NCBI GenBank assembly: GCA_949752735.1
Contig: OX457039.1
Span: 22,056,830-22,120,829, forward strand
Direction: 5' to 3'
DNA from: Lumbricus terrestris
Taxonomy: Eukaryota > Annelida > Clitellata > Crassiclitellata > Lumbricidae
Length of the DNA: 64,000 nucleotides
Part shown: piece by piece, positions 1,255-61,748 of the stretch
How positions within the stretch are numbered: position 1 is the stretch's first letter
Layout of the letters: the number at the start of each line of letters is the position of its first letter
Notes under the pieces: model-generated
Databases searched by the model: none
Told to the model about the DNA's origin: nothing
The model's input: the letters and a program-made list of their open reading frames with translations, nothing else
Position numbers and translations under genes: made by a program

Positions 1255-1388
1255 ACATGCACGTATCGGTCTCAAGTCGCCTCAATTACTGTAAGTCACT
1301 TCTTGTTTGCGTTACATGGTCAAACACGATTAAACCACAGATGGTTCAGAACTCTTTCCAGGCCATAACTAATCGCCTACCCCAAAAT
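1255..1388 (+). pseudogene. CR1/L2-like reverse transcriptase fragment
   Basis: The plus-strand translation contains VSSRLNYCKSLL followed by a QNSFQAITN-like stretch. This matches the conserved region after the catalytic core of CR1/L2 reverse transcriptases (SRLDYCNSLL ... QNAAARLV). The fragment is about 45 codons and ends next to the 8-bp TSD of the palindromic element starting at 1397, which may have interrupted it. No continuation was identified on the far side at 3770. Confidence 0.5.
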
Positions 1389-1704
1389 ATGAACATTAGG
1401 GTTGTCCAGAAAAACAAAAAGTTTCAGAAAACACCCATACTCAAGTTTTCCCCATGCTTTTATTCATGTGTGGCCTACAGATATTTTTTACAGAATTTTA
1501 AAATGTCATCCTAGGGTCCCTCATGGACCCTGAACTTATGGACCGATTTTGGTAGAAATCGCACTGTATTTTCAATACGAACAACTGATAGCAAAGTAGA
1601 TAGGACTCACAGTTGCACCATTAGACACCAAACTGATATAATTTTCATTACTCTTGACTAATCATCAATAAAATAAGCTGAAATGTACTATCTGAGCAAT
1701 ATAA

Positions 1705-1879
1705 GGGGCCGTCCATAAATGACGTCACGCAATTTGGGACGATTTTTGACCCCGAAACCCCTCGTTGCATGTCGTCACAAAATTTATACGATATCTAGTA
1801 AGAAACTGTCACAAATAGTCACAGATGTGTGACCCGGCCCTTCCCCCGGGGTGCGTGACGTCATTTATGGACGGTCCCC
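1705..1879. mobile_element. Hairpin MITE in left arm of palindrome
   Basis: It begins GGGGCCGTCCATAAATGACG and ends with the near inverse (…CATTTATGGACGGTCCCC). A second copy lies in the opposite arm at 3281-3453. The GTCCATAAATGACGTCACG end type is, from memory, common among animal MITEs. No protein is encoded. Confidence 0.7.
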
Positions 1880-2926
1880 AATGAAGCACCAGTACGCACC
1901 CGCCGCAGGCGTCGCATCATATGGTTCAATCCCTATTTTTCACATAATGTTAGTAACGCGACTGATGCGAATACCTTTGACACAAAGCCTATATGCTTAA
2001 AGATGTTGACTCTCCAACAGCACCCAGATTTATTCGTATTGTCTTGCTTAATATCTTCTCGTCAAAAGTTTGGAATTACTTGATGTGCTCTTTGACACCC
2101 TGCAAAAGTCATGGAGGATCTTTGTTCAGGATCGGTCGTAACAGTGCTTAAATTGTGGAAAAAACAAGTGCCTGGACAACCATTATCTTTCCAAAACAAG
2201 TGCCTGGATGCTCCATACCTTTCCAGGCTGTGCTGGCCAATAAGTGGCAGGACGGCGTTCAGATTTTAAACTAAGTGCATGGACGCCGTCCATGATCGTC
2301 CAGCCGCACTTTAAGCCCTGGGTCGTAATAATGGTTGCAAGTATAAGCTTCAGTCCACGCTCAGCTGTGTCGTTTGCTGATGCTCCAGCAAGATGATCTC
2401 CCGCTTTGTCCATGACATGATTGATTTTAGTGTAGTAGATAATGGCAGCCGACAATACTGAAATTGATTTACATGGCAACCACCGATGGTACCCAGCCCC
2501 AGAGCAAGAATCCCCAGGGTGGTTGGGGTTTCAACCTTCCCGTCTTTCCTACAGACCCATAGTAAAGTATACTTTTCACACACCAATTCCTAGTGGATCA
2601 TAGGAGGTCAACCCATCCCGTTATTTGTCCACAATTCTCACACTGGTGGTACCTCACGGAATGAATTGTTCCATTTGTACTTTAGAGCAAAAATTCCATG
2701 ATAGCAACAATAATAGTGACTCGATTGTTAGCAACACCACTGCATGCCTGAGGCCATCTACAAGTTTCGATAGGTCTTGCCTTGAAGCAAGTTGCTCGCG
2801 GTACAACCTTAACGAAACTTAACTGACCCAGAATCACACACTCTGTTCTGACTGCTGGATATCAGCAATGACTGGCTAGTTAAGCCAGCCAATCAATGGT
2901 CATGCGACCAAACATACATCTCAGCT

Positions 2927-2990
2927 GAGAAATTGTTTCGTGCTGTAAAAGTTGTAAAGGACACAGCTGAGCGTGGACTGAAGCTTATTA
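2927..2990 (+). pseudogene. Transposase-like relic, family shared with 17660-18766
   Basis: The plus strand reads EKLFRAVKVVKDTAERGLKLI. The element near 17.3-19 kb contains HVKVVNDLAERAVKLIQDF in the corresponding place. The match covers about 15 residues, with VKVV, AER and KLI shared. I recall similar 'AERGVKLI' proteins as repeated, uncharacterised ORFs in many invertebrate genomes, but have no family name. The inverted copy is readable on the minus strand around 2350 (DTAERGLKLI). No full-length enzyme remains. Confidence 0.5.
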
Positions 2991-3280
2991 TCAGTCTTCG
3001 CAACCATTATTACGACCGATCTTGAACAAAGATCCTCCATGGCCTTTACAGGATGTCGAAGAGCACATGAAGCTATAAGCTTACCAAACTTTTGACAAGA
3101 AGACATCAAGCAAGGCACTACAAATAGTGTCCCGTAATCATAGTCTGGGTGCTGTTGCAGAGTCGACATCTTTAAGCATATGGGCTTTATGTCAAGAAAT
3201 TCACAACAGTCGCATTACTAACATTATGCGACAAATAGGGATGTGATGCGCCTGTGGCGGGTGCGTACTGGTGCTTCATT

Positions 3281-3453
3281 GGGACCGTCCATAAATGACG
3301 TCACGCAATCCGGGGGCGGGCCGGGTCACACATCTGTGACTATTTGTGACAGTTTCTTACTAGATATCGTATGAATTTTGTGACGACATTTAACGAGGGG
3401 GTTCGGGGTCAAAAATCGTCCCAAATTGCGTGACGTCATTTATGGACGGCCCC
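3281..3453. mobile_element. Hairpin MITE in right arm of palindrome
   Basis: Inverted counterpart of the MITE at 1705-1879, starting GGGACCGTCCATAAATGACG and ending TTATGGACGGCCCC. The two copies differ at several sites, so the arms have diverged since duplication. Confidence 0.7.
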
Positions 3454-3992
3454 TTATATTGCTCAGATAGTACATTTCAACTAGTTTTATTGCTGATTAG
3501 TCAAGAGTATTGAAAATTATATCAGTTTGGTGTCTAATGGTGCAACTGTGAGTCCTATCTGCTTCGCTATCAGTTGTTCGTATTGAAAATACAGTGCGAT
3601 TTCTACCAAAATCGGTCCATAAGTTCAGGGTCCATGAGGGACCCTAGGATGACATTTTAAAATTCTGTAAAAAATATCTGTAGGCCACACATGAATAAAA
3701 GCATGGGGAAAACTTGAGTATGGGTGTTTTCTGAAACTTTTTGTTTTTCTGGACAACCCTAATGAACATACATGATAGGCCTACAGGTAGACCTACCGTC
3801 ACTGTGATTAAATCTTCCATTGGATTTATATTTAGTGAAGGATTTGATTTGTTCAAATTAAGCTTCGTAGACGTAGGAAGAATTCCAAAGTCTAGGGTCA
3901 TAATCCATTATCTGTCTTAGTCGCGTTTATGTCATCTGCTTTGCAACGTATGACTTGCCTTTTATCCACTAGCCTATTGCTTGTCCACTGTT

Positions 3993-10406: not shown

Positions 10407-11973
10407 TGTACAACAGTAGGACTGTTGACAAAGGATTTAAACGTTAAGTAATGTAATAGTAATGTAATAAGACCCATATTATATGTAGGGAAAGGAGATC
10501 CTAGGCCCACATAATATAGATATAGCGACGCCCTTGCTGCAACTGGTGTCCACGTGTTCCCTGCGTGTAGAGAGTGTGTGACCGAGTCAGCATGACTTGC
10601 AGATTTAACTCGGCCTGCCCTGGAAAGACAGCGTGTCCCGATTGAGTTGGCAGACTGCCAATGCATGGTAGTAGCAACAACTGGGGCTGAAGCGTCCCCC
10701 AGAATCATATAAAAGCCCTTTTGCGACGGACCAAAGGGCCGATGCCCAGATTCTTGATCCAGGAAGGACCTACGCTGGTATCGTCAGAGCCCGGAGGTGA
10801 AGAATAATGCCGCCTTCGTCAACCCAGGAATAGACGATCTGCTTTCCGAAGTGTGAGTAACCAACTCAAAGAAGAGTTTAGCGTCTCCTTCGTCGAGTGC
10901 AGGATAGTCCTCTTCCGATCCGTTCTACCTCAGGACAGGAGTCCGTAACCGCGTACTCGGAATGGATAGTCTACAGCGAGATCCCCGCCATTGATCGGGA
11001 GTATAAGTTGTTTTCTGTTCCGTTGCCACTGTCAGCCGTACAAACAGGTCTGGACGGATCTAAGGTATGAACCGTAGGGATTATTCGAGTGCTCTGTGAA
11101 TCCTAAATTCATAGAGAATTGCCTCCCCTCCCTATTTTATTAAGGTAGAATCAAAGACTATAATAAGACTGTGCTTTGTCGAAGGTTCGTGTGTGAATGC
11201 TCTGACATTGATCTGAATGACTGCATACTTTGTGTGCCTAAATAGATATTAGTTTGTAGTACTAGCTTAGAAATTATTTACTCTGCTTTGACAATATATA
11301 CTTTGAAATGGAAGAGAGTTGTGTTACGGCTACCACCGATGGTGAGGTATTGGTAAAGGAAAAGACAGGTGACCATACGGCCGAATTGCTGGAGCGTATG
11401 TTGACCCAGATCACTCGGATTGCCACCACCCAATCCGACCAAGCGTCCCAGCTAAATCAGATCACTCACACCCAATCTGATCTGGCTTCCCAGCTAGACG
11501 AGGTGGCCAGTGGTCAGTCTGGTTTATCCCAGAGCCATCAAGAAGTAGTCGAAAGAATGAGGGAGATGGAAGAATACGTACACGATCGAGTGGGCCCAAC
11601 CCAAACGAACCCTGACTTCTACTTCCCGGAGGAAGAAGTTGTGAATCCCACGATCACCGCTCTTCCACTCAGACACCTATCGTCAGGAACCATCTTTCCC
11701 CAGCTCCCGTCACGATCTCGCGAGTTCGAATACCTCTCGGATGAACCGAGACAGGAGGCCAGTGCAGCTTCCTTCCAGCCTCGCAGAAGCGAGAGAATCC
11801 GAGAGCGACAGTCGTATCTGTATCATCCAGACACTAGAGGCCCACTAGCTGCTGCAGATGCTTCATTCAAACCCTCTCTGGTAGCGCGGAGAGGGGAGGC
11901 ATTCATTCCCCTTGACGAGGGCGGATCTAGGGATCGTCTTCGTAAGGGGTTGCACCGGCGAAATCACTACAAT
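10407..11973 (+). repeat. 1567-bp direct repeat, left copy (LTR + leader + 5' gag)
   Basis: It matches 15400-16966 over its whole length, with the same length and, as far as I could compare, no differences. It includes the LTR start, the TATA box, the leader and the first 222 codons of gag. It begins with a small palindrome, CAACAGTAGGACTGTTG. Such identity means a very recent event, gene conversion or an assembly duplication. Confidence 0.85.
10708..10715 (+). promoter_or_regulatory. TATA box in 5' LTR
   Basis: TATAAAAG about 300 bp into the LTR and 600 bp before the gag ATG. Position and sequence suit an RNA polymerase II promoter starting the genomic RNA about 30 bp downstream. The same box lies at 15701-15708 in the second repeat. 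Confidence 0.6.
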
Positions 11974-14733
11974 GGCGACGAAGATGCGGATTTAGATGAC
12001 CCTAACGATGATGATTGTGATGATGACACAGAACGACTGGTTGCCAATAGACAGAGGTCTAGTGATAAAATGGTTAGTTTTAGCATGCTGACGAATCGTT
12101 CTATTGGACAAAACACGGATTTAAATGAGTACGGCGAAACAAACTCTCAAGTAAAAGCCGTCTCTAGCAGTTTAGGAACGGTAGAGGGGACGTCTGCAAA
12201 AGAATATGACGTAACCTCTTACCAGTTCATTGGCACTAGTGAAAAACAAGTCGGTGGTGCTACCCAATCAAACCACGAAAGACAAACCGACTTTATAAAT
12301 GTAGGAACCAGGAGAGAAGGGCAGACAAAAGAAACTGCTTTCTGTCTCAATCGGTTCAGTCGTAGGTCCAAAGAATGTGATGATGATGAAGCTGATGATG
12401 AATATGAAGCGTGTGATGTGGCTGAAGATGAAAATGCTTTGTTGTGCAATGTGAATCGAACCGGAGACAAAGAAATAGGGAAAGATAGAGGGTTAAGCCA
12501 AAGTGGGGTGAATTTCGGCCAAAGTGAAATTATCGTTCATTCTGAAATTGACCACGACAGATCCCGTAATTTAGAACCACGGACGGCCACTGCCTTGCAT
12601 TCATCGTCTAAAGACAACCATGCAACACGACAGCCAACAGATCGTCTTTCGCAACAAGTTCACTGGCCGATGACTCACACAGCGTCTGTGTACAACGGCG
12701 ACCCCGTCTTCAGCCGCTCCGTTGATGCTGCTGCCGCTTCGACCACCTCTCGCTGCAACCACAACCCCCGACGCGCGATGCCTTCGGATACCGCAACCCT
12801 GATGACGTCAGAGCGACGGCCGATACTTGCTGTGCATCAGAAAGCGCCACCTTACGGACGACAAACCGTCAGCGGCCATTCTGATTACTACGCTGTGCCG
12901 AGTGATTCGTATTACTCGGACAGGCAGCACGAACTATTTGTGCCTCGTTGTACTGATGACCTTAGAGTGACCTACGTGAACTTACCGAATGTAAGCAGCA
13001 GAATTGGCGCTCAACGCTTCGAACCACTGTACAACAACCCCTACCCACCCCGCTTGTCCACCTTCGCCCCAAACAACCCTGTAACTTCGGTGGCGACACA
13101 AACTGACTCAACTGATCTGTGGAAAGAGTACGAGCGACATATTAATGCGCCTGCAACGAAAAATAGGCCTACGATTACGTCGACCGCGACTGCAACTGCC
13201 AATGCGCCTGAATGTCGGAAAGAGCCAGCGAAGAAAAGAAATCCGTTGAAGCTACGTGACTATGGAGGCGTTGAACCGCTTGAGGAATTCCTGCACAGAT
13301 TTAATATCTGTGCCAGTCATAACGAATGGTCTGAGATAGAAAAAGTAAACCATTTGTCTTGCGCGTTAGTTGGAGAAGCTGCGCAGGTTCTCTGGTGTCA
13401 TGAAGCTGGTCCGTGTGATTCTGTAGATGAAATAATAGAGCGACTGACCAACCGTTTCGGTGCGACTGAACAATCTTCTCTGTATCAGGTGAAACTGGCG
13501 ACCCGACGGCAGAGGAGAGGAGAAGAACTGGCTGTGTTAGCACAAGACGTGCGCCAACTGATGTCAAAAGCCTTCCCTGGTAAAAGCTCTGTCCATAGCG
13601 AGGCCATTGGCATAAAATCGTATCTCGACGCTCTCCATTCGAAAGAGTTAGCCCTTCGCACAATGGAACTTGAACCAAAAACATTGAATGACGCCATCAA
13701 GATATCCCTCCGCCTTCATGCCTATAGACAAGCAACAGCAGGAAATGATGAAACCTACCACAGAAATACTGGCCGAGTCAGTGCAATCAAAGAAGTTAAA
13801 TCACCGCTCGCTGAACTCTCTGAGCGAATCGATCGCTTAGAGCGCGCTAACACGGCCAGAATGTCATCACTGTGGGATGACCTTCCAATCACTCGCTCTT
13901 TTCACCGCCCAAACCCAGTCAATCAACGTAATAACGTCCAATCCAGGATTTGGCCTACGCAGAACCAGGGCCATGACCAGCGACGAAATCAACCCCCTCG
14001 CTTCGACCAACGCCAGTGGTATAACCAACGATCTCCCCAACGAGCACAGACGCCATTCAACGACCAACGACAAAACCCACACGGAGACGAGTTTGCGTCT
14101 GTCAACCATATTCAAAACTGCGAAAGTGCCTACCTGCAAATCCGCATCCATGGAAAGGAAGTCTTGGCCCTGATCGACTCTGGGGCATCTCTGTCTCTCT
14201 GCCCCTCCCACCTTGTGGAACCCCACGAGATGCGACCAACCACTCGACGTCTACTGGCAGCAAATAACACTGAAATCCCTGCAGTTGGCCAGACACTACT
14301 GTGCTGTGAGATGGATGATGCGTCGTTTCAAGTGGAATGTATCGTGACTCCCGCTATTAGTCAGCCGATCCTAGGTCTGACATGGCTGGAACAGGAGCAA
14401 GTCAAGTGGGACTTTGGACGAAAACAGCTGACGATTAATGGTCGACCGCTGCCACTCCACTATCCATCTGATGACGTCAGATGTCAACGCGCCGCTGCGA
14501 CGAAGAATGTCCACCTACCACCCCTCTGCGAGATGAACGAAGAGGCAGTTGCTACACTGTCGAACCCGGAAGTAAGCGAGGATCTCGGGGCCACGCAATC
14601 AACCGTACCAGACACGGGACAGCCAAACGAAGCTGAGCCATGTCGACAAACTGCGGAAATGCCATGGAACCTATCCCGACGCCGGAGAGCAGCCAAGAAA
14701 AGAAAGCGATCTAACGCCAATGCCTGGCGATGA
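11308..14733 (+). CDS. gag: Gag-protease polyprotein of gypsy-like element
   Basis: 1141 residues. Residues ~25-90 form a glutamine-rich predicted coiled coil with repeats of the QSDxASQL type. Residues ~100-600 are low-complexity and charged, with an acid stretch near 224-243. Residues ~646-810 resemble a Ty3/gypsy capsid domain (LRDYGGVEPLEEFLHRF onward). Residues ~860-930 are rich in R, Q and N, like a nucleocapsid, but show no CCHC zinc knuckle. A retroviral-type aspartic protease follows, with catalytic DSGAS at 957-961 and the flap-side ILGL near 1021-1024. The C-terminus is strongly basic (SRRRRAAKKRKR). The ATG at 11308 is the first in frame and is preserved in the repeat copy. The role is assembly of the particle and self-cleavage. 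The unusual point is that the ORF stops at TGA with no pol behind it. Confidence 0.8.
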   Translation: MEESCVTATTDGEVLVKEKTGDHTAELLERMLTQITRIATTQSDQASQLNQITHTQSDLASQLDEVASGQSGLSQSHQEVVERMREMEEYVHDRVGPTQTNPDFYFPEEEVVNPTITALPLRHLSSGTIFPQLPSRSREFEYLSDEPRQEASAASFQPRRSERIRERQSYLYHPDTRGPLAAADASFKPSLVARRGEAFIPLDEGGSRDRLRKGLHRRNHYNGDEDADLDDPNDDDCDDDTERLVANRQRSSDKMVSFSMLTNRSIGQNTDLNEYGETNSQVKAVSSSLGTVEGTSAKEYDVTSYQFIGTSEKQVGGATQSNHERQTDFINVGTRREGQTKETAFCLNRFSRRSKECDDDEADDEYEACDVAEDENALLCNVNRTGDKEIGKDRGLSQSGVNFGQSEIIVHSEIDHDRSRNLEPRTATALHSSSKDNHATRQPTDRLSQQVHWPMTHTASVYNGDPVFSRSVDAAAASTTSRCNHNPRRAMPSDTATLMTSERRPILAVHQKAPPYGRQTVSGHSDYYAVPSDSYYSDRQHELFVPRCTDDLRVTYVNLPNVSSRIGAQRFEPLYNNPYPPRLSTFAPNNPVTSVATQTDSTDLWKEYERHINAPATKNRPTITSTATATANAPECRKEPAKKRNPLKLRDYGGVEPLEEFLHRFNICASHNEWSEIEKVNHLSCALVGEAAQVLWCHEAGPCDSVDEIIERLTNRFGATEQSSLYQVKLATRRQRRGEELAVLAQDVRQLMSKAFPGKSSVHSEAIGIKSYLDALHSKELALRTMELEPKTLNDAIKISLRLHAYRQATAGNDETYHRNTGRVSAIKEVKSPLAELSERIDRLERANTARMSSLWDDLPITRSFHRPNPVNQRNNVQSRIWPTQNQGHDQRRNQPPRFDQRQWYNQRSPQRAQTPFNDQRQNPHGDEFASVNHIQNCESAYLQIRIHGKEVLALIDSGASLSLCPSHLVEPHEMRPTTRRLLAANNTEIPAVGQTLLCCEMDDASFQVECIVTPAISQPILGLTWLEQEQVKWDFGRKQLTINGRPLPLHYPSDDVRCQRAAATKNVHLPPLCEMNEEAVATLSNPEVSEDLGATQSTVPDTGQPNEAEPCRQTAEMPWNLSRRRRAAKKRKRSNANAWR

Positions 14734-14849
14734 TGGCGATTCACGTATAGTAGGAAACTCTACGATGATGACGATGACTCTGTAGAACTCCCGATCCCCC
14801 GCCCCGAACGCACCATGCGTTTACCCGCACGTTACCAGGATAACGTGTA
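14734..14849 (+). other. In-frame remnant resembling the C-terminus of a Pol protein
   Basis: After the gag TGA the same frame stays open to a TAG at about 14849. It encodes an acidic stretch followed by PRPERTMRLPARYQDNV. Ends of the type R-x-P-x-R-Y are common at the end of gypsy integrases, so this may be what remains of pol after an internal deletion. This is inference from about 38 codons only. Confidence 0.35.
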
Positions 14850-15399
14850 GTGTTTCGTGTAGTTTTTGTAGCCTTTGATCTGATGTGTTTTATGTTGCCC
14901 TATTTTGCTTTTATTGAGCTGGCATTTGAATCGTGAGTCCAAATGAGCCGGAAACAGACACTTCTTCTGCGAATTTACCCCTTATGCGTGAAATCTCGTC
15001 TGCATAATCAAGTGCTCTGATTTCGGACAGCCGATGGAATGTTGATGTTATGAGTGACACTGAACACTATATGTTATAGGTAGCTTTTAGTATGCATAAC
15101 GGACACTGATTGCATTGACATGGTGATTATGATGTGAAGGAAGATTTATACTAGCGTCAATTTGCCCTAATAGATCTAATCCCCTGTATGGCTTGGACAA
15201 ATAAGAGACTGAGGTGGTAGGAAAGGGAACTGATCCGAAGCGCGTCAGTCGACCTCCAGACCACCGCAGTACGAGAAATGTCCTCGAGGTAACCTGAGAC
15301 CAGGGTTATGCACGGCCGAAAACGATGTCTCCATGAGACGGAAGTAGTTGAAAAATTCCGACCTACAGCCTGAATTTTTCACGAGTCGGTCGCGGAGAG

Positions 15400-16966
15400 T
15401 GTACAACAGTAGGACTGTTGACAAAGGATTTAAACGTTAAGTAATGTAATAGTAATGTAATAAGACCCATATTATATGTAGGGAAAGGAGATCCTAGGCC
15501 CACATAATATAGATATAGCGACGCCCTTGCTGCAACTGGTGTCCACGTGTTCCCTGCGTGTAGAGAGTGTGTGACCGAGTCAGCATGACTTGCAGATTTA
15601 ACTCGGCCTGCCCTGGAAAGACAGCGTGTCCCGATTGAGTTGGCAGACTGCCAATGCATGGTAGTAGCAACAACTGGGGCTGAAGCGTCCCCCAGAATCA
15701 TATAAAAGCCCTTTTGCGACGGACCAAAGGGCCGATGCCCAGATTCTTGATCCAGGAAGGACCTACGCTGGTATCGTCAGAGCCCGGAGGTGAAGAATAA
15801 TGCCGCCTTCGTCAACCCAGGAATAGACGATCTGCTTTCCGAAGTGTGAGTAACCAACTCAAAGAAGAGTTTAGCGTCTCCTTCGTCGAGTGCAGGATAG
15901 TCCTCTTCCGATCCGTTCTACCTCAGGACAGGAGTCCGTAACCGCGTACTCGGAATGGATAGTCTACAGCGAGATCCCCGCCATTGATCGGGAGTATAAG
16001 TTGTTTTCTGTTCCGTTGCCACTGTCAGCCGTACAAACAGGTCTGGACGGATCTAAGGTATGAACCGTAGGGATTATTCGAGTGCTCTGTGAATCCTAAA
16101 TTCATAGAGAATTGCCTCCCCTCCCTATTTTATTAAGGTAGAATCAAAGACTATAATAAGACTGTGCTTTGTCGAAGGTTCGTGTGTGAATGCTCTGACA
16201 TTGATCTGAATGACTGCATACTTTGTGTGCCTAAATAGATATTAGTTTGTAGTACTAGCTTAGAAATTATTTACTCTGCTTTGACAATATATACTTTGAA
16301 ATGGAAGAGAGTTGTGTTACGGCTACCACCGATGGTGAGGTATTGGTAAAGGAAAAGACAGGTGACCATACGGCCGAATTGCTGGAGCGTATGTTGACCC
16401 AGATCACTCGGATTGCCACCACCCAATCCGACCAAGCGTCCCAGCTAAATCAGATCACTCACACCCAATCTGATCTGGCTTCCCAGCTAGACGAGGTGGC
16501 CAGTGGTCAGTCTGGTTTATCCCAGAGCCATCAAGAAGTAGTCGAAAGAATGAGGGAGATGGAAGAATACGTACACGATCGAGTGGGCCCAACCCAAACG
16601 AACCCTGACTTCTACTTCCCGGAGGAAGAAGTTGTGAATCCCACGATCACCGCTCTTCCACTCAGACACCTATCGTCAGGAACCATCTTTCCCCAGCTCC
16701 CGTCACGATCTCGCGAGTTCGAATACCTCTCGGATGAACCGAGACAGGAGGCCAGTGCAGCTTCCTTCCAGCCTCGCAGAAGCGAGAGAATCCGAGAGCG
16801 ACAGTCGTATCTGTATCATCCAGACACTAGAGGCCCACTAGCTGCTGCAGATGCTTCATTCAAACCCTCTCTGGTAGCGCGGAGAGGGGAGGCATTCATT
16901 CCCCTTGACGAGGGCGGATCTAGGGATCGTCTTCGTAAGGGGTTGCACCGGCGAAATCACTACAAT
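15400..16966 (+). mobile_element. Second, truncated gypsy-like unit (LTR + leader + 5' gag)
   Basis: Head-to-tail continuation of unit 1. The 3' LTR of unit 1 is directly followed by a second leader and gag start, cut off at 16966 where microsatellite-like DNA begins. The order LTR-internal-LTR-internal is what recombination between LTRs of tandem copies would give. TATA box at 15701-15708. Confidence 0.75.
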
Positions 16967-27973: not shown

Positions 27974-29491
27974 TGACCAGGAGGTAAGTTTACAGGCTTG
28001 TTCTGCAGCATAATCAAGGTCGCTTATAGGTCTATGTAGTGCGAATGGCGTTTCAAAATAGCGCGCACGGCGTTCAAAAGATCGCAGGTCCTTATAATGT
28101 GTCATCCTCTGCAGTACGATCCACAGCATATGTAGCCTGCTTCAAGATATATGATACTCGGAGCAGATTATGTATGTGCGGTGTCGGTCTATAGGTCACC
28201 CACATACTGCCAAACAAACGCTCAGTTGCAGGCCTATAGGCTATAGGCCTATGTACTTACTTACTGTGAGCCTATCCTGGCTTAGCTTTACTTCCGGTAA
28301 CTAATGGCTAGTTATAAGTAGGCCTATCTACAGTTCTTTAACTTTGTAACGCAAAACAACGACAAGTTTCTCGTTTTTTTTCTTCAAAATCCATCAATAG
28401 AAAATGACATAAACGACACGACAACGACTAATTTTACGTGTATCAAAACAACTCAACGTTAAGACTACATCGCCATCTTATCAAACTCTCTCTCTATACT
28501 CTTTATACACACGACTGGCACTCCTACCCAAGCCTATCTCACTCTTAGTGTACATCCCTCCTAACCTCCTTTAGCCGCTCTGTCTCTCTTAGTCGGGTCA
28601 ATCTACGAAAAAACTTCGGTGAACCCGGAAAAATTTGCAAGAAAGCGTTTTATGATGATTTTATGGTATATTGGGTCTGGTGATGAACATACTAAAAGTT
28701 GACAAAAATTGCACCACGGCAAGTGGGCTAATTTTGGCGGGAAAAAAGATGGCCGCCAATTGGACTAGGCATGGAATCTGGAAATTATACTGTTATGAGC
28801 AAATCATGTAATATATTGCTAACATGCTTTTCTAAACTAATTCGACCCTCCTGAAAACGAAAATCGTGGTTAGCAAGCTTGATTTTCAGCGGTTGCATGG
28901 GAAAACACGATGGCGGCCAAAATGGCGGTCTATAATTGATTCAAAAGGTTGTATAGTCGGGTCAATCTACGTAATGATCCGCAAAATTGTAAGAAGGCGT
29001 TTTATGATGATTTTCTGGTGTATTGGGTCTGGTGTTTAACATACTAAAAGTTGCAAGAAATCGGACAACAGCAAGTGGTCTAATTTTGGCGGGAAAAAAG
29101 ATGGCCGCCAATTGGACTAGGCATGGAATCTGGAAATGATACTGTTAGGAACAAATCATGTAATATATTGCTAACATGCTTTTCTAGACTAATTCGACCC
29201 TCCTGAGAACGAAAATCGTGGTTAGCAAGCTTGATTTTTAGCGGTTGCATGGGAAAACAAGATGGCGGCCAAAATGGCGGCCTATTGCTTAAAAGGCTGT
29301 AGGTCGGGTACATGTATGTGATAAAATTATGAACACGATTTTGCAATTAAAATTAAGATGTATGGGTTCTAGGCATGCAATGGAATCAAAGACACGTATG
29401 TAGCACTGGAAGAAAACCAAAATGGCGGTCAGAATGTTGAAATTGCTAAAAGTGAAGTGATGTATGCAATGGAAACATGTCTCGGAAATGA

Positions 29492-30008
29492 ATGGATCTT
29501 TCGAAGGCGGAGGCGGACGAGAAGTGGAATGGGGTAGAAGGCGAATGGAATCTATCCTGCGCAATACCATCCTCCACCAACCCATCCACATCATCATCAG
29601 CATCATCTCCATCACAGCCTGACATCAAAAGGCGCTGGAGGGGGTTCATTCCAGCAACGTCTCAAAAGCCAGGCCTAAGGGCACTTGCCGGGAACACTCA
29701 AACGGGACAAGAGTTTGCTATCCATGGCGCATCTATCAGCGCACCCCTACGAACCGTACACCCGAGGGAGGCTGCCCTTACCATCCGCTGTTCCATCGTC
29801 GTCGTCGCGTGTTCTCCAGCCGTCGTCCAGTCCCAACCCGCACACTACGAACTTCTTCTTTTTGCGCTATTCTCCCCCTCGCGTTGCCAGCCTTCGTCTG
29901 GCAAAAGGAGCGCTAAGAGAACGATCATCTCCCACGGGTGGCCTCGAACGACTCTCTGGCAAGGGCGGTCACGACCACCAGCACCACCAGCTCAACACCA
30001 CCACCTAG
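29492..30008 (+). pseudogene. Ser/Pro-rich ORF in left arm of palindrome, frameshifted
   Basis: Starting MDLSKAEADEKWNGVEGEW, the protein matches the right-arm ORF through FAIHGASISAP. A ~10-bp extra segment (CCCTACGAA-like, near 29743) then shifts the frame. The rest of the homologous sequence continues in the next frame (29685-30008) to SGKGGHDHQHHQ. No known domain. Composition is rich in S, P, H and R; no signal peptide or membrane segment. Confidence 0.45.
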
Positions 30009-30128
30009 AGATGGAAGAGATCAACACGAAGGACCTAGCGCAGAAGATTAGCAGTGGGGTACAGCAACCCTCCTCCAACTATCGATTCAGACTGAACCCC
30101 TGAAACATCGCTGTACAAACAGTGGTTT

Positions 30129-30683
30129 CTAATATAATGTGATCTGCGTTTGGAGTGCAGAAAATAGTTCAACAACTTCCATCTCAAGGTGGTGGTGGAG
30201 CTGGTGGTGCTGGTGGTGGTGACCGCCCTTGCCAGACAGTCGTTCGAGGCCACCCGTGGGAGATAATCGTTCTCTTAGCGTTCCTCTTGCCAGACGAAGG
30301 CTGGCAACGCGAGGGGGAGAATAGCGCAAAGAGAAGAGGTTCGTAGTGTGCGGGTTGGGACTGGACGACGGCTCCTGGACACGCGACGACGACGATGGAA
30401 CAGCGGATGGTAAGGACAGCCTCCCTCGGGTGTACGGTGCGCTGATAGATGCGCCATGGATAGCAAACTCTTGTCCCGTTTGAGTGTTCCCGGCAGGTGC
30501 CCGTAGGCCTGGCTTTTGAGACGTTGCTGGAATGAAACCCCTCCAGCGCCGTTTGATGTCAGGCTGTGATGGAGATGATGCTGATGATGATGTGGATGGG
30601 TTGGTGGAGGATGGTATTGCGCAGGATAGATTCCATTCGCCTTCTACCCCATTCCACTTCTCGTCCGCCTCAGACCCATACAT
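30129..30683 (-). CDS. Hypothetical Ser/Pro/His-rich protein in right arm of palindrome
   Basis: 184 residues. It is the unshifted version of the left-arm ORF: an acidic/tryptophan start (EKWNGVEGEWNLS), a serine run (SSTNPSTSSSASSPS), a middle block RRWRGFIPATSQK, a Ser/Pro-rich part and a histidine-rich end near residue 155. I do not recognise the family. That a reading frame is kept across two diverged arms hints at real coding, but it could be chance in GC-richer DNA. The function is unknown and could be an element-encoded accessory protein or a captured host exon. Confidence 0.35.
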   Translation of the reverse strand: MYGSEADEKWNGVEGEWNLSCAIPSSTNPSTSSSASSPSQPDIKRRWRGFIPATSQKPGLRAPAGNTQTGQEFAIHGASISAPYTRGRLSLPSAVPSSSSRVQEPSSSPNPHTTNLFSLRYSPPRVASLRLARGTLRERLSPTGGLERLSGKGGHHHQHHQLHHHLEMEVVELFSALQTQITLY

Positions 30684-31444
30684 CTTAATTTTAATTGCAA
30701 AATCGTGTTCTTATCACATACAATACCCGACCTACAGCCTTTTAAGCAATAGGCCGCCATTTTGGCCGCCATCTTGTTTTCCCATGCAACCGCTAAAAAT
30801 CAAGCTTGCTAACCACGATTTTCGTTTTCAGGAGGGTCGAATTAGTCTAGAAAAGCATGTTAGCAATATATTACATGATTTGTTCCTAACAGTATCATTT
30901 CCAGATTCCATGCCTAGTCCAATTGGCGGCCATCTTTTTTCCCGCCAAAATTAGACCACTTGCTGTGGTTCGATTTCTTGCAACTTTTAGTATGTTAAAC
31001 ACCAGACCCAATACACCAGAAAATCATCATAAAACGCCTTCTTACAATTTTGCTGATCATTACGTAGATTGACCCGACTATACAACCTTTTGAATCAATT
31101 ATAGACCGCCATTTTGGCCGCCATCGTGTTTTCCCATTCAACCGCTGAAAATCAAGCTTGCTAACCACGATTTTCGTTTTCAGGAGGGTCGAATTAGTTT
31201 AGAAAAGCATGTTAGCAATATATTACATGATTTGCTCATAACAGTATAATTTCCAGATTCCATGCGTAGTCCAATTGGCGGCCATCTTTTTTCCCGCCAA
31301 AATTAGCCCACTTGCCGTGGTGCAATTTTTGTCAACTTTTAGTATGTTCATCACCAGACCCAATATACCATAAAATCATCATAAAACGCTTTCTTGCAAT
31401 TTTTTCCGGGTTCACCGAAGTTTTTTCGTAGATTGACCCGACTA

Positions 31445-48486: not shown

Positions 48487-48693
48487 ACAGGACAATTACC
48501 CCCTGGACAATTACCCCCCGGACAATTACCCCCGACAATTACCCCCTGGACAATTACCCCCCAGGACAATTACCCCCCCGGACAACTACCCCCCATGCCA
48601 ATTACCCCCCGGACAACTACCCCCCGTGCCAATTACCCCCCGGACAATTACCCCCCGTACCAATTACCCCCCGGACAATTACCCCCCGTGTCA
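48487..48693. repeat. Minisatellite (GGACAATTACCCCCC)n, forward
   Basis: About thirteen units of 14-19 bp, GACAATTACCCCCCG with GACAACTACC and GCCAATTACC variants. The inverse array lies at 49286-49515. The Pro/Thr/Gln-rich ORFs over it are artefacts. Confidence 0.9.
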
Positions 48694-48699
48694 CGTTAG

Positions 48700-49019
48700 A
48701 TGCAAGTTAGTGTTAAGCATTCACGAAAAATATTAAATAAAATCCAATCTAAAAACGGCTCTAAGCTAGTTGTAACGCCTGCCTAATAAAATCTTAAAAT
48801 GTTTATCTTTCCCTCTCTGAGTGCTAGAAGGAGGTATGTACGCAGATAGCTGAGAAATAATGGTAGTAAGGTAAGGATAAATTAAGTACCCCAGCTATAG
48901 AGTATATATATTATGCAAGAGCGTGCAGGTAACGTATGCATGAGAGCGAGAGAAACAGATACATGGAGATAAATAGAGAAAGACAGCGAGAGGAACAGAA
49001 GAGGCATGGAGTGCTAGAA
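48700..49019. other. Unassigned spacer between inverted arrays
   Basis: AT-rich DNA with no ORF of note. It contains AGTGCTAGAAGGAGG twice (about 48820 and 49010), a short direct repeat of unknown meaning. Confidence 0.4.
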
Positions 49020-49265
49020 GGAGGTTTGGCGCTGTCTCGCGGGTGTGGCCCCTGTCTATTTGCAGGAGCTCTGTTGCTCCACCCTGAACGTTCAGCGCCG
49101 TGGCTCTCTCCGCTCTTCTAAACAGGCTCAGTTTCTTGTCCCCTGGTCACGCACTTCTATTACACAGCACCGTGCCTTTTCTGTCGTTGACCCTATAACC
49201 TGGAATGGGCTTCCTGTGGAACTACGTCTTGTGCCTAGAGCCTTTGAGACTACGTTCTACAACTG
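49020..49265 (+). pseudogene. CR1/L2-like ORF2 C-terminus
   Basis: VYLQELCCSTLNVQRRGSLR then SKQAQFLVPWSR and HRAFSVVDPITWNGLPVELR match the last ~80 residues of CR1/L2-type ORF2 (APxYL..L, RAFSVxAPxLWNxLP.ELR). It is probably the other half of 47556-47702. Confidence 0.75.
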
Positions 49266-49285
49266 AACAAGCTCACACTGTGCCA

Positions 49286-49515
49286 CGGGGGGGTAGTTGT
49301 CCGGGGGGTAATTGGTACGGGGGGTAATTGCCCGGGGGGTAATTGGCACAGGGGGTAGTTGTCCGGGGGGTAATTGGCACGGGGGGTAGTTGTCCGGGGG
49401 GTAATTGGCACGGGGGGTAGTTGTCCGGGGGGTAATTGTTCTGGGGGGTAATTGTCCAGGGGGTAATTGTCGGGGGGTAGTTGTCCGGGGGGTAATTGTC
49501 CAGGGGGTAATTGCC
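49286..49515. repeat. Minisatellite (GGGGGGTAATTGTCC)n, reverse of 48487-48693
   Basis: About fourteen units, GGGGGGTAATTGTCC with GTAGTTG and GGCAC variants, in opposite orientation to the first array and about 600 bp away. The pair could be the two ends of one element. Confidence 0.9.
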
Positions 49516-57814: not shown

Positions 57815-58339
57815 GTAGTTTAGATCTCAATACGAGTAATAATAGTAATATACTAATATGCACAACTGATGCAATCTTACCAGTTCGTCCCTTTGGCTTT
57901 GGAAACAATGGGACCAATCAACGCCAAGGGACAGGCATTTCTCGCCGACCTGGGACGTCTCTTGTCCCAAGTTTCTGGTGAACCAAGAGAAACCAGTTGT
58001 TCCAGCGCCTGTCTATCATTATTCAGCGCTTCAATGCTGTTGCCTTTCGCAGCACTTTTGTTCTCCGGAACTTCTCCCTGATCTTGACTCGGATGGTCAC
58101 TCCAGAGTTAAAATTGCGTATTAATATCTGACACCTGAGGAATTATAGATAGGCCTACCTCGGGTAAAAAAAAATAATATATCATTATTATTATTATTAG
58201 GCTATCGCCATCATCGTCATCATCATCAATAACCCAGCGCGCGGTCGACTTCGATGATGACATGTTATTGGCAACTCGAAGACTTTTTTAAAGTTCGCGC
58301 TCGAGGCTTAGCTGTTGTCTGTTGAATTAACCTTGTTAC
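57815..58339. other. Flank of copia-like element, no gene
   Basis: (ATT)n and (CATCAT)n short repeats near 58180-58230. The ORFs here are short and unsupported. Confidence 0.4.
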
Positions 58340-58537
58340 TGTTAAGAAACGAAGCGGATCACTTGGTAAACGATAAGATTTTAATAAGATTAATCGCCAT
58401 GATCTAGAACTGAAACTAGCTGTCTTTAAGCCATTACCGGAAAAGGAAGAACTAAACGCGAGAAAGAAGAACTGACGACTACATAATGTTAGGATAATCA
58501 TAGTCGTTATATAGCGCTAGATCTATAAAGTCCAACA
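58340..58537 (-). repeat. Copia 3' LTR (minus orientation)
   Basis: 198 bp starting TGTTGGACTTTATAG on minus, with TATATAA (rc of 58507-58513). Same as 61551-61748. Confidence 0.9.
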
Positions 58538-58593
58538 CCCCTCCTTAACGACTACTTTACCATAGCATCATAACAAAAAAATAAACTGTTCTC

Positions 58594-58765
58594 TCAATTT
58601 AGCCCAATTTCACTAGTAAACTTCCTAGTTTTAACTGCTTCCAAAGGCTTAGCTAAGAGATCAGCTATCATGTGTTCACTAGAACAATACTTAATGTCTA
58701 GTTCCTTCTTTCTGTACATTTCCCGTACGAAATGATATTTAGTTCCGATATGCTTTGTTCTGTAA
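58594..58765 (-). pseudogene. pol: RNase H C-terminal remnant of copia pol
   Basis: Minus strand: TKHIGTKYHFVREMYRKKEL then YCSSEHMIADLLAKPLEAVK and a stop at 58594. This is the conserved end of copia RNase H. It joins the RT remnant out of order at about 58766, showing a deletion of the middle of RT-RNase H. Confidence 0.8.
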
Positions 58766-58770
58766 CTGTT

Positions 58771-59105
58771 TCAAAACACCCGGATCTTCATGACCATAGT
58801 TTTATTCATAAGTTCTTCAAACTTCTTTAACATTGTAGATTTTGTCGATGCTACAATCAGGTCATCCACATGAATTGAGATGTAAATCCATCCATCATCG
58901 TACTGTTTTGAATATAAACATAGATCATTGTCACTTCTCTTGTATCCATCAGTGACAAGTACTTCATTGAGCTTTTTGTTCCATTCATTTGCTCCTTGTT
59001 TAAGTCCATATAAATTCTTTTTCAATTTACAGACTTCTGTAGTGCCTTTCTGATATCCATCAGGTTGTTTCATGTAGACTTCATGAGATAGTTCACCATT
59101 CAGGT
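58771..59105 (-). pseudogene. pol: Reverse transcriptase remnant of copia pol
   Basis: Minus strand: YLNGELSHEVYMKQPDGYQK, CKLKKNLYGLKQGANEWNKK and YISIHVDDLIVAS. These are the middle RT blocks including the DD catalytic pair (HVDDLIVA). The N-terminal part of RT is absent: the frame before YLNGEL belongs to the region after integrase, marking a second deletion near 59105. Confidence 0.85.
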
Positions 59106-61373
59106 AAGCTGAGTGTCTGTAGTTTCTGTAATTTCCTTATCAGGCTGTGTAATTTCTTCCTCGGGTAATTGATGTGTCGGAAAAAGAATACTTTCATCAT
59201 CAAAATCCGAATTTGATGACAGTTCTTCAATGTCCAAATCTGTTTCACCCTCTTTCGACAAATGTGGATCTGTCTCGAGAAAAATTACATCTCTACTAAT
59301 GTATACTTTGTTAGTATTCACATCTAGTAGTCTGTAACCTTTTGTGCCTCTTTCATAACCGACGAAGGTCAATTTCTTGGCTTTATCGTCCAATTTCTGC
59401 CTTTTCTCTGCAGGAATTGCTACGTACGCTTTAGATCCAAATCTCTTTATGTAGCTTAAACTTGGTTTTCTTTTGTTCCATCTTTCATAGGGAGTGACTT
59501 CAATCCCTTCCACTGGTAATCTGTTCTGTAAATGGTTTGCTGTCTTTATGGTTTCACCCCAAAATTGTAGCGGTAGATCTGCATCCTTTAACATGCATCT
59601 TGTCATCTCGGTGAGATAACGATTCTTTCTTTCTGCACAACCATTCTGTTGAGGAGTATAAGGGTTTGTGAATTCTGCTTGAATTCCTTCACTTTTCATG
59701 AAATTCTGTAACCTTTGAGCTGTGTATTCCCCTCCTCTATCTGATCGAATTCTTTTCGGTGTTTTACCAAACCTTGTCTGAACATGCTTGACGTACTCTT
59801 GAATCTTTTCAGGTACTTCAGATTTATTTGCCAATAAATACACTTCTGTATATTTACTGTAATCATCAATCATCGTCATGAAATATCTTTTCCCACCAGG
59901 TGTTGTTGTCTGCATTGGTCCACAAACATCTGTATGTATTAAGTCTAGAATCTCATCTGACTTGGAATCTGACTTCTTTGGAATTGACTTTCTTGTCATC
60001 TTTGTTTGAATGCAACATTCACACACACTTGAGAATTTACACGGCTTGATGATGATCCCTGATACTTTATTCTGATTCACCATGTTTTGTATGGCTTTTG
60101 GATCTCTGTGTCCCATTCTGTTATGCCAAACGTGTATGCAACCTGTGCAACTTTGTGCAACCTGTGCGATATGTGTTTCCTTTACTTTATTCGTTTGGTC
60201 ACAGATTCTCAATTCAAACAAATCATTTTTGTCATCTGCAATTGCAATTGCTTCTCCATCCTTTATGATAGTGCATTTGTTTTCCTTGAATCTCACCTCA
60301 CAACCTTTACTGACAAGTTTCTTTACTGAAATTAAATTTCCTTTCAATTGTGGGACGTACAAGACTCCACACAATTTTGCAACATGTATCTCTCCGTTTT
60401 CCTTTATGAAATTTATCATCACATCACCACTTCCAGCAGTTTTAATCTTTCGACCATCAGCGAGAAAAACTTCACTGTTGTACTGTCTGTTAATGTTCAA
60501 GAAGAAATTTCTGTTACTGCATATATGTGTTGTTGCACCAGAATCAACGTGCCAAACACTGCTTATGTCTTTTTCGTTTGCTTTAAGACATGTATGTGCT
60601 ACACTTTCTGTTGGTTTTTCTTCATTGAAATTTTCTCTCAACGTTTTAACCGCGTGGTCTGGATTTCTTTTCTTCCACTGGATATATTTTCTGCAATCCC
60701 TTTTTATGTGGTTAGGTTTCTTACAGAAATAACATGTGAGATGTTCCTTAGGATTTGTTTCTGGTTTTGTTGCCTTTAAAGCCTTTAATTCCTGTCCTTT
60801 ATGTGTTGAGGAATTACTTGTCCTTCTTGTAAACTCTTCAAGAAGTTTGTTTTTGACTAATTCAACAGTCAAATCATTTTCAGGTCTACTTTCTAATGCC
60901 GTAATCAGTGTCCCGTAACTTTCTGGAAGACTACTGAGGAAGAAAGCAACTGTTAAATGCTCTGCCAACGTTTCTCCCAACGCCGTGAGCTGGTCAATTA
61001 AATTTTCCATTTCCGCAAGATGGTTTTGCATATCACCATGTTCTGTTAACTTTAATGCACACAGTTTTCTCAATAAATTGACTTTACTGGACAGTGTTGC
61101 CTTTTGATAATACTTCTTTAATTGTTCCCATAAACCTTTTGCCGTAGTTTCTTTCCTTATTAGATGAAGTTGGTTGTCTTCAACTAACAAACCTATCGTG
61201 GCTCTTGCTTTTCCATCTTTACTTTGCCACGCTTCCGTAATAGGATCGGGGGTTTCTTTAGTGACAGTGTCCCACAAGTCCTCTTTAATTAGCAGAAGTT
61301 CAACTTTAAACTTCCAAATCTGGTAGTTGCTATTATTCAGTTTTGCGATTTTACCTGAGCTTTTATCCGTCAT
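59100..61373 (-). CDS. gag-pol: Copia-like Gag-protease-integrase polyprotein (RT part lost)
   Basis: About 757 residues from the ATG at 61373 (MTDKSSGKIAKLNN). The upstream 24 in-frame codons are probably leader. In order: copia Gag (UBN2-type, ~1-220, with LWEQLKKYYQ); one CCHC zinc knuckle (CYFCKKPNHIKRDC); aspartic protease with WHVDSGATTHIC; GAG-pre-integrase HH..CC motif (VWHNRMGHRDPKA ... CECC); an integrase core with D (LIHTDVCGP), D (IRSDRGGEYT) and E (QNGCAERKNR); and a C-terminal integrase region (FGSKAYVAIP). It ends at 59100, just beyond a deletion junction. Gag, protease and integrase look intact; reverse transcription would need help in trans. Confidence 0.9.
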   Translation of the reverse strand: MTDKSSGKIAKLNNSNYQIWKFKVELLLIKEDLWDTVTKETPDPITEAWQSKDGKARATIGLLVEDNQLHLIRKETTAKGLWEQLKKYYQKATLSSKVNLLRKLCALKLTEHGDMQNHLAEMENLIDQLTALGETLAEHLTVAFFLSSLPESYGTLITALESRPENDLTVELVKNKLLEEFTRRTSNSSTHKGQELKALKATKPETNPKEHLTCYFCKKPNHIKRDCRKYIQWKKRNPDHAVKTLRENFNEEKPTESVAHTCLKANEKDISSVWHVDSGATTHICSNRNFFLNINRQYNSEVFLADGRKIKTAGSGDVMINFIKENGEIHVAKLCGVLYVPQLKGNLISVKKLVSKGCEVRFKENKCTIIKDGEAIAIADDKNDLFELRICDQTNKVKETHIAQVAQSCTGCIHVWHNRMGHRDPKAIQNMVNQNKVSGIIIKPCKFSSVCECCIQTKMTRKSIPKKSDSKSDEILDLIHTDVCGPMQTTTPGGKRYFMTMIDDYSKYTEVYLLANKSEVPEKIQEYVKHVQTRFGKTPKRIRSDRGGEYTAQRLQNFMKSEGIQAEFTNPYTPQQNGCAERKNRYLTEMTRCMLKDADLPLQFWGETIKTANHLQNRLPVEGIEVTPYERWNKRKPSLSYIKRFGSKAYVAIPAEKRQKLDDKAKKLTFVGYERGTKGYRLLDVNTNKVYISRDVIFLETDPHLSKEGETDLDIEELSSNSDFDDESILFPTHQLPEEEITQPDKEITETTDTQLT

Positions 61374-61550
61374 TTTTATTCTTTCGGTGAAAAGAAATAA
61401 ACAACTGTTTCTCGCATTTCTGTCGCGATGTAAGAAAACAGTCACGCTATACTGCGCAGTTGACCGGATTATCCTTATATGACTTATTAAAGTTCCGTAT
61501 CATAAACTTTTGTGATCATTACGTGCTCTAGGCTTGCTGGGGCCATAACC

Positions 61551-61748
61551 TGTTAAGAAACGAAGCGGATCACTTGGTAAACGATAAGATTTTAATAAGA
61601 TTAATCGCCATGATCTAGAACTGAAACTAGCTGTCTTTAAGCCATTACCGGAAAAGGAAGAACTAAACGCGAGAAAGAAGAACTGACGACTACATAATGT
61701 TAGGATAATCATAGTCGTTATATAGCGCTAGATCTATAAAGTCCAACA
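61551..61748 (-). repeat. Copia 5' LTR (minus orientation)
   Basis: Same 198-bp sequence as the 3' LTR. TATA-like CTATATAAC on minus lies at about 61717-61725, directing transcription leftwards. Confidence 0.9.

Follow-up and report, generated by a model that had tools for sequence, protein, structure and literature searches.

The 64-kb stretch of DNA analysed here (hereafter the window) contains a palindromic element of 2855 bp, including the TA at both ends, whose exact limits were placed at 28590-31444. A preliminary description of the locus had reported a palindrome of ~2.85 kb with exact inverse ends, which proved to be real: the element begins with TAGTCGGGTCAATCTACG and closes with its exact inverse (written 5′/3′ as TAGTCGGGTCAATCTACG...CGTAGATTGACCCGACTA), and the same palindromic structure was found repeatedly across the genome and is hence beyond chance. 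The arms pair as an outer couple of 721 nt (28590-29310/30724-31444, 99% complementary), a further couple inwards (29510-29745/30436-30671, 98%) and an innermost couple (29750-29996/30195-30441, 94%), beyond which lies the central spacer. Comparison of the element with the window revealed no second copy within these 64 kb. The features are as follows, the Onecut gene fragments being those identified below.

28590..31444, no strand: whole element, 2855 bp, termini TAGTCGGGTCAATCTACG...CGTAGATTGACCCGACTA; many relatives are ~3.0 kb
28590..28953, plus strand: left-arm outer tandem unit (U1)
28954..29313, plus strand: left-arm inner tandem unit (U2)
29314..29504, plus strand: left-arm subterminal block M, without a match to the Onecut locus and mostly deleted in the right arm
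29505..30054, plus strand: left-arm Onecut fragment, sense towards the centre, its 3′ end just within the CUT domain (...LEMEEINTKDLAQKIS)
29492..30103, plus strand: open frame of 203 codons, of which residues 13-159 follow an alternative Onecut frame and residues 172-194 that of Onecut itself
30055..30175, no strand: central spacer between the arms, ~120 bp
30176..30671, minus strand: right-arm Onecut fragment, sense towards the centre
30129..30683, minus strand: 184-codon open frame, residues 11-84 in the alternative Onecut frame and 83-172 in the Onecut frame
30672..30724, minus strand: what is left of right-arm block M, ~140 bp less than in the left arm
30725..31080, minus strand: right-arm inner tandem unit (U2)
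31081..31444, minus strand: right-arm outer tandem unit (U1)

From the outside inwards, each arm is built of two tandem units of ~360 bp, block M and a GC-rich block. The paired, diverged tandem units noted in the preliminary description were borne out (termini 364 apart, 300-nt cores 92–93% alike), as was its GC-richer block, with a GC content of 0.57–0.58 compared with 0.40–0.41 in the left-arm tandem units. The 184-codon frame ascribed to the right arm is indeed open; the left arm includes a stretch of 10 bp that is absent from the right. The window copy is shorter than its ~3.0-kb relatives, its right arm having lost ~140 bp of block M together with further short stretches. Very long, internally repetitive inverted repeats occupy most of the element, as is typical of foldback elements. 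The tandem units also contain AAGATGGCCGCC and AANATGGCGG motifs (present in all five copies counted), which we take to resemble YY1 sites.

Elsewhere in the window, a 15-bp unit (GGACAATTACCCCCC) and its complement form a pair of inverted tandem arrays ~600 bp apart at 48490-49513, likewise foldback-like in appearance, and a second long inverted repeat of ~770 bp (1388-3770, 90% alike) lacks TAGTCGGGTC termini. A Copia-type retrotransposon with identical 199-bp end repeats (58339-61748) encodes gag, integrase and related domains in one open frame of 799 aa. Within 10407-16966, a pair of identical direct repeats, each 1567 bp long and separated by 5 kb, flanks a 1155-aa frame, which starts within the repeat and shows weak gag and protease matches.

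The preliminary description had proposed a mobile, multi-copy element, and the genome (1.056 Gb, 331 contigs) contains abundant relatives. With the left arm (1401 bp) as query, there were at least 44 matches in at least 31 loci, with the best 40 of 1809 candidates scored, and 30 loci other than the window copy were retrieved from this search. Allowing ≤2 mismatches, the 18-base terminus occurs at 1234 sites (616 + 618) compared with 11 (3 + 8) for a reversed control. Since an intact element offers up to four terminus sites, we estimate from this count a family of ~300 element equivalents or more. The copy in the window belongs to a non-autonomous, foldback-like family of DNA transposons with hundreds of members. 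The 99.7% identity of the closest pair (L029/L031), combined with their differing target duplications, suggests that a transposase has probably been active recently. A further sample of 22 loci (20 + 2), chosen by terminus alone, took the earliest listed places of contigs 1 and 2 and is therefore non-random.

Both ends were surveyed at 51 loci, of which 41 have ends >700 bp apart and ten were excluded (an end missing or a span ≤700 bp). The locus had been described as a TA-flanked insertion, and in each of the 41 two-ended copies GTCGGG is indeed bordered on its outer side by TA at either end, as would be expected of a Tc1/mariner-type element with a TA duplication. However, 39 of the 41 carry a further 3-bp direct repeat, varied in sequence, beyond the terminal TA; shuffling the right flanks (2000 trials) gave a mean of 2.2 copies with a 3-bp match and a maximum of eight, and direct repeats of 4–12 bp beyond the TA were found in none of the 41. 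Two copies depart from this pattern: the window copy (tct/gag), which may have been rearranged after insertion, and L019, for which the left end detected is an inner one. Of two short copies outside the 41, L072 has a matching 3-bp repeat and L073 does not (GTA/ATA).

One insertion (L035) lies in a short repeat, an uninterrupted relative of which occurs inside another copy (L017). The predicted L035 empty site, with a single CCA, is identical to this relative at 141 of 147 positions across the junction and contains no TA; the relative is one C shorter in a C run beside the junction and is related but non-orthologous. For a second related site (L021 versus L070), the alignment reached only 69%, broken by a gap where the junction lies, and is of little informative value. 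Because the 39 duplications lie beyond the TA and the L035 empty site agrees with them, the TA is best read as part of the transposon terminus and the target-site duplication, and thus the stagger, as 3 bp; the claim of a TA-flanked insertion does not stand, and a Tc1/mariner-type element has next to no probability. The family has the inverted termini, the duplication of constant length and the intact related (non-orthologous) site that characterise a DNA transposon with terminal inverted repeats (TIRs). The alternative of a single-copy inverted duplication lacking an empty site, against which the preliminary description had warned, likewise fails before a multi-copy family with a related, non-orthologous empty site. 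The short repeat itself (~145 bp) lies nested within the Onecut piece of the B arm in both L017 and L020, and a relative of it is the L035 target.

PIF/Harbinger elements usually make a 3-bp duplication of the TWA type, from which the present family differs: five of the 39 duplications were TAA and none TTA. CACTA/EnSpm elements have CACTA-type termini, and the ends here are TAGTCGGG...CCCGACTA. The 8–10 bp duplication of Mutator-type foldback elements (Tetris) was not found, none of the 41 copies matching at 4–12 bp, and a 3-bp duplication of the Zator type is present in the family. The preliminary description saw no known transposase, and we too recognised none among the frames of the element. 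By eye, no transposase was recognised in the frames of L054, L056, L060, L063 and L067 either. We searched the genome with the PF07592 profile (DDE_Tnp_ISAZ013), chosen because Zator is related to ISAzo13 according to the part of the source consulted (PMC10045372), and obtained no match; control genomes were equally silent. As no autonomous partner was found, the cut-and-paste assignment is drawn only from the TIRs and the target-site duplication.

Two candidates for such a partner were rejected. An 8.4-kb copy (L052) has an extra 5.4 kb within one arm, which we read as a nested insertion; it holds two identical sets of frames 3.39 kb apart, and the three frames tested had no Pfam match. A frame of 91 aa in L057 that looked transposase-like to us had no Pfam match, and the stretch concerned has 16-bp inverted ends of its own; we read it as another nested element: positions 990-2876 of L057, between U2 and M, form a ~1.9-kb insertion with the ends CAGGGGTTCTCAAACT.

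The origin of the GC-rich block became apparent from protein searches. A protein query derived from it matched P0001, a 438-aa sequence containing a CUT domain, with 71% identity across 76% of the query length (E 3.7e-50), as well as P0002, which has CUT and homeobox domains (E 2.8e-49). A search for CUT domains in the host genome gave 15 matches, and when 12 loci were compared with the block, only L040 (C5:31342328-31342558) showed an extended match (84% across 397 nt and 78% across 144 nt), the others having just short stretches in common with it. The donor is an exon of a host Onecut (HNF6-type) gene (L040/L051, C5:31.34 Mb), whose frame is a single open stretch of 455 codons. The GC-rich block belongs to a captured piece comprising ~770 bp of this one exon, which is present in both arms with its coding sense towards the centre. 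Because the gene keeps a conserved domain and has homologues on other contigs, the transfer ran from gene to element. Seven host loci (L039-L045) with strong CUT domains (109–122 bits) and open frames of 287–532 codons suggest that the host may have an expanded Onecut set.

Choosing copies by terminus alone brought up older copies with a longer Onecut piece. Among six such long-capture copies, the A-arm piece ends at exon nt 1150-1157 in all six and starts at nt 383-386 in five, the sixth being truncated; the B-arm piece starts at nt 385-386 in all six and is shortened further in. As these borders are nearly common to the six, they suggest one capture event, with the piece probably shortened later in the subfamily of the window copy. 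Onecut sequence was present in 12 of the 13 two-ended copies chosen by terminus (11 + 2) and in 15 of all 22 terminus-chosen loci. What is expected of transduplication is found here, namely a fragment of a gene still present in the host, enclosed by TIRs and a target-site duplication and with sharp borders, although the window copy itself has no such duplication. One 624-bp relative (L073, positions 79-702) has the same termini and units and no Onecut sequence; it may either predate the capture or have arisen by deletion.

The preliminary description had suggested an element-encoded or captured protein, of which the capture stands—the block is host Onecut DNA—and the protein does not, its frame being chimeric and free of visible constraint. 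In the 184-residue frame, residues 83-172 follow the Onecut frame (69%) and residues 11-84 the donor’s alternative frame, shifted by −1 (47%), while in the 203-residue left-arm frame residues 13-159 are in the alternative frame (55%) and residues 172-194 in that of Onecut (78%). A functional protein might nonetheless be argued from the length of the frames, since across 75 arms (a B arm with a nested insertion was omitted) the longest frame had a median of 175 aa within a median of 573 nt. Selection need not be invoked to explain an open wrong frame, because in the donor exon the alternative frame already runs open for 322 codons, and the openness can be put down to inherited composition. New stops in the open frame, counted in 28 A and 28 B arms from the 31-locus set, were fewer than expected in A arms, though not significantly (four observed, 8.3 expected, P = 0.08), but not in B arms (seven observed, 6.7 expected), and the net length departed from the consensus by a number not divisible by three in 14 of the 28 A arms and 22 of the 28 B arms, cut ends included.

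Codon positions tell the same against coding. Among the 75 arms, variable columns numbered 79/236, 87/238 and 99/236 at codon positions 1, 2 and 3 (p = 0.16), so no significant excess of synonymous changes, by which a protein was to be recognised, is seen among copies, which counts against one. A third-position excess does appear when the donor gene is compared with the arm consensus (19/236, 16/238 and 47/236 differences; p = 5e-6), and we attribute it to synonymous changes that the gene lineage underwent once the capture had taken place; an early phase of coding constraint before amplification would also fit. The proposed profile search with the 184-aa protein gave no Pfam match, nor did the other frames tested, and the sole matches in a protein search with it were three similar predicted frames (P0003-P0005) on three public contigs, which might be taken as support for a functional protein. 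With half of its frame that of Onecut, half the alternative one, and no significant codon-position bias among copies, we rejected a novel 184-aa protein. Structure matches of the 203-aa frame to NEDD8-buster (best E 0.054) fell in its out-of-frame part (residues 29-88) and were deemed due to chance. The frame is not conserved beyond chance, as that of a protein-coding gene would be, and we consider it very improbable that the element encodes or retains a functional captured protein. Judged from its sequence, the captured piece is broken and bears no sign of retention as a protein.

The two arms of a copy resemble one another more than they do those of other copies. Both ends and a centre match were available for 38 of the 51 loci (13 were skipped), and leaving out three more gave 35 elements for arm comparison, in which same-copy arms were 98.5% alike in the inner unit, compared with 95.2–95.4% between copies, and 95.6% alike in the Onecut part, compared with 93.2–94.4%. 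The partner arm was nearest, or tied for nearest, for 13/58, 30/62, 39/68 and 18/62 arms in four segments respectively. From this greater likeness within copies we infer partial arm-to-arm conversion.

Overall, we favour, with a probability of roughly 0.88, the reading of a non-autonomous foldback transposon of the cut-and-paste type that captured a piece of Onecut once, was amplified and has since decayed as non-coding DNA. A transposase, presumably supplied in trans, would move the element by a 3-bp staggered cut, and the tandem units could serve as repeated transposase-binding sites, as has been proposed for Galileo. One lineage would have acquired the ~770-bp single-exon piece through aberrant transposition or repair. 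Since the two arms hold the piece in opposite orientations and with a common 5′ border, capture would have preceded the palindrome or arisen together with it. The family would then have been amplified to some hundreds of copies, in which the piece appears to decay like ordinary non-coding DNA through internal deletions and frameshifts.

In plants, TIR transposons commonly capture fragments of host protein-coding genes. In animals, according to the consulted part of a 2008 paper, such capture was unknown before Turmoil-1 of C. elegans (PMC2572040), which is the closest precedent among the sources as consulted. Turmoil-1, a member of the Harbinger superfamily (usually with 3-bp target duplications), resembles the present family in being an animal DNA transposon whose long inverted repeats both hold fragments of host genes (rsp-2 and cpg-3), and the same extracts report no purifying selection on its captured domain (PMC2572040). 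It differs, as there described, in having its own transposase, one full copy and eight fragments, and an intron within the rsp-2 piece (PMC2572040), whereas the present family has no recognised transposase, numbers some hundreds of copies, forms a nearly complete palindrome with tandem units in its arms, and carries part of just one exon of a transcription-factor gene.

Tetris (PMC4079207) and Galileo (PMC3688188) likewise have non-autonomous copies and inverted repeats that are very long and repetitive within, and foldback-type kin include the sea urchin TU element, as cited in the Tetris paper (PMC4079207). Tetris has 8–10 bp duplications and was placed in Mutator by its authors (PMC4079207), in contrast to the 3 bp found here, and Galileo belongs to the P superfamily (PMC3688188); the portions of these two descriptions available to us do not include gene capture in the arms, which is present here. 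Plant Pack-TYPE elements, from extracts of the literature on them, are likewise non-autonomous TIR elements carrying host gene fragments with sharp borders (PMC8903248, PMC8616336), but they are usually not highly repeated, unlike this animal family with its fragment in both arms. The Zator superfamily, as partly consulted, shares the 3-bp target duplication (PMC10045372) and differs in that no linked transposase accompanies the family here, PF07592 being without a match in this genome and silent in the controls too. Among the top results from the open-licence literature, we found no published description of this palindromic family or of any Onecut capture.

The presence of Onecut pieces in both arms, in inverted orientation, makes a hairpin small RNA against Onecut possible: transcription of the palindrome would yield double-stranded RNA as well as small RNAs able to silence the family and, by way of the captured piece, the donor Onecut gene. 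All 38 elements have at least one perfect 21-mer in common with the donor exon (longest run 53 nt), the shared stretches lying at exon nt 557-611, 865-906 and 1072-1109; of eleven other CUT-domain loci, eight share no 21-mer with any element and three share one with 2–3 of the 38. In maize, according to a review passage, donor genes of captured fragments show higher siRNA and methylation (PMC8616336). Against this, the captured fragment decays without visible constraint and part of the shared sequence consists of simple runs of His or Ser codons, so that we regard such silencing as unlikely, if worth entertaining. Slightly less likely again is that the hundreds of palindromes would form a dispersed reservoir of hairpin RNA feeding small RNAs onto Onecut, in a conflict between a transposon family and a developmental regulator.

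For annotation, these frames are a warning, as they mimic a novel Ser/Pro/His-rich gene and frames of this kind already sit in public data as predicted proteins (P0003-P0005). For the biology of the family, the finding means that a captured fragment of a transcription-factor gene has been carried in both arms of a palindrome to some hundreds of copies. With apparently one capture, many copies and a living donor gene, the family offers a natural experiment in which whether such captures create a small-RNA conflict with their donor becomes a directly testable question.
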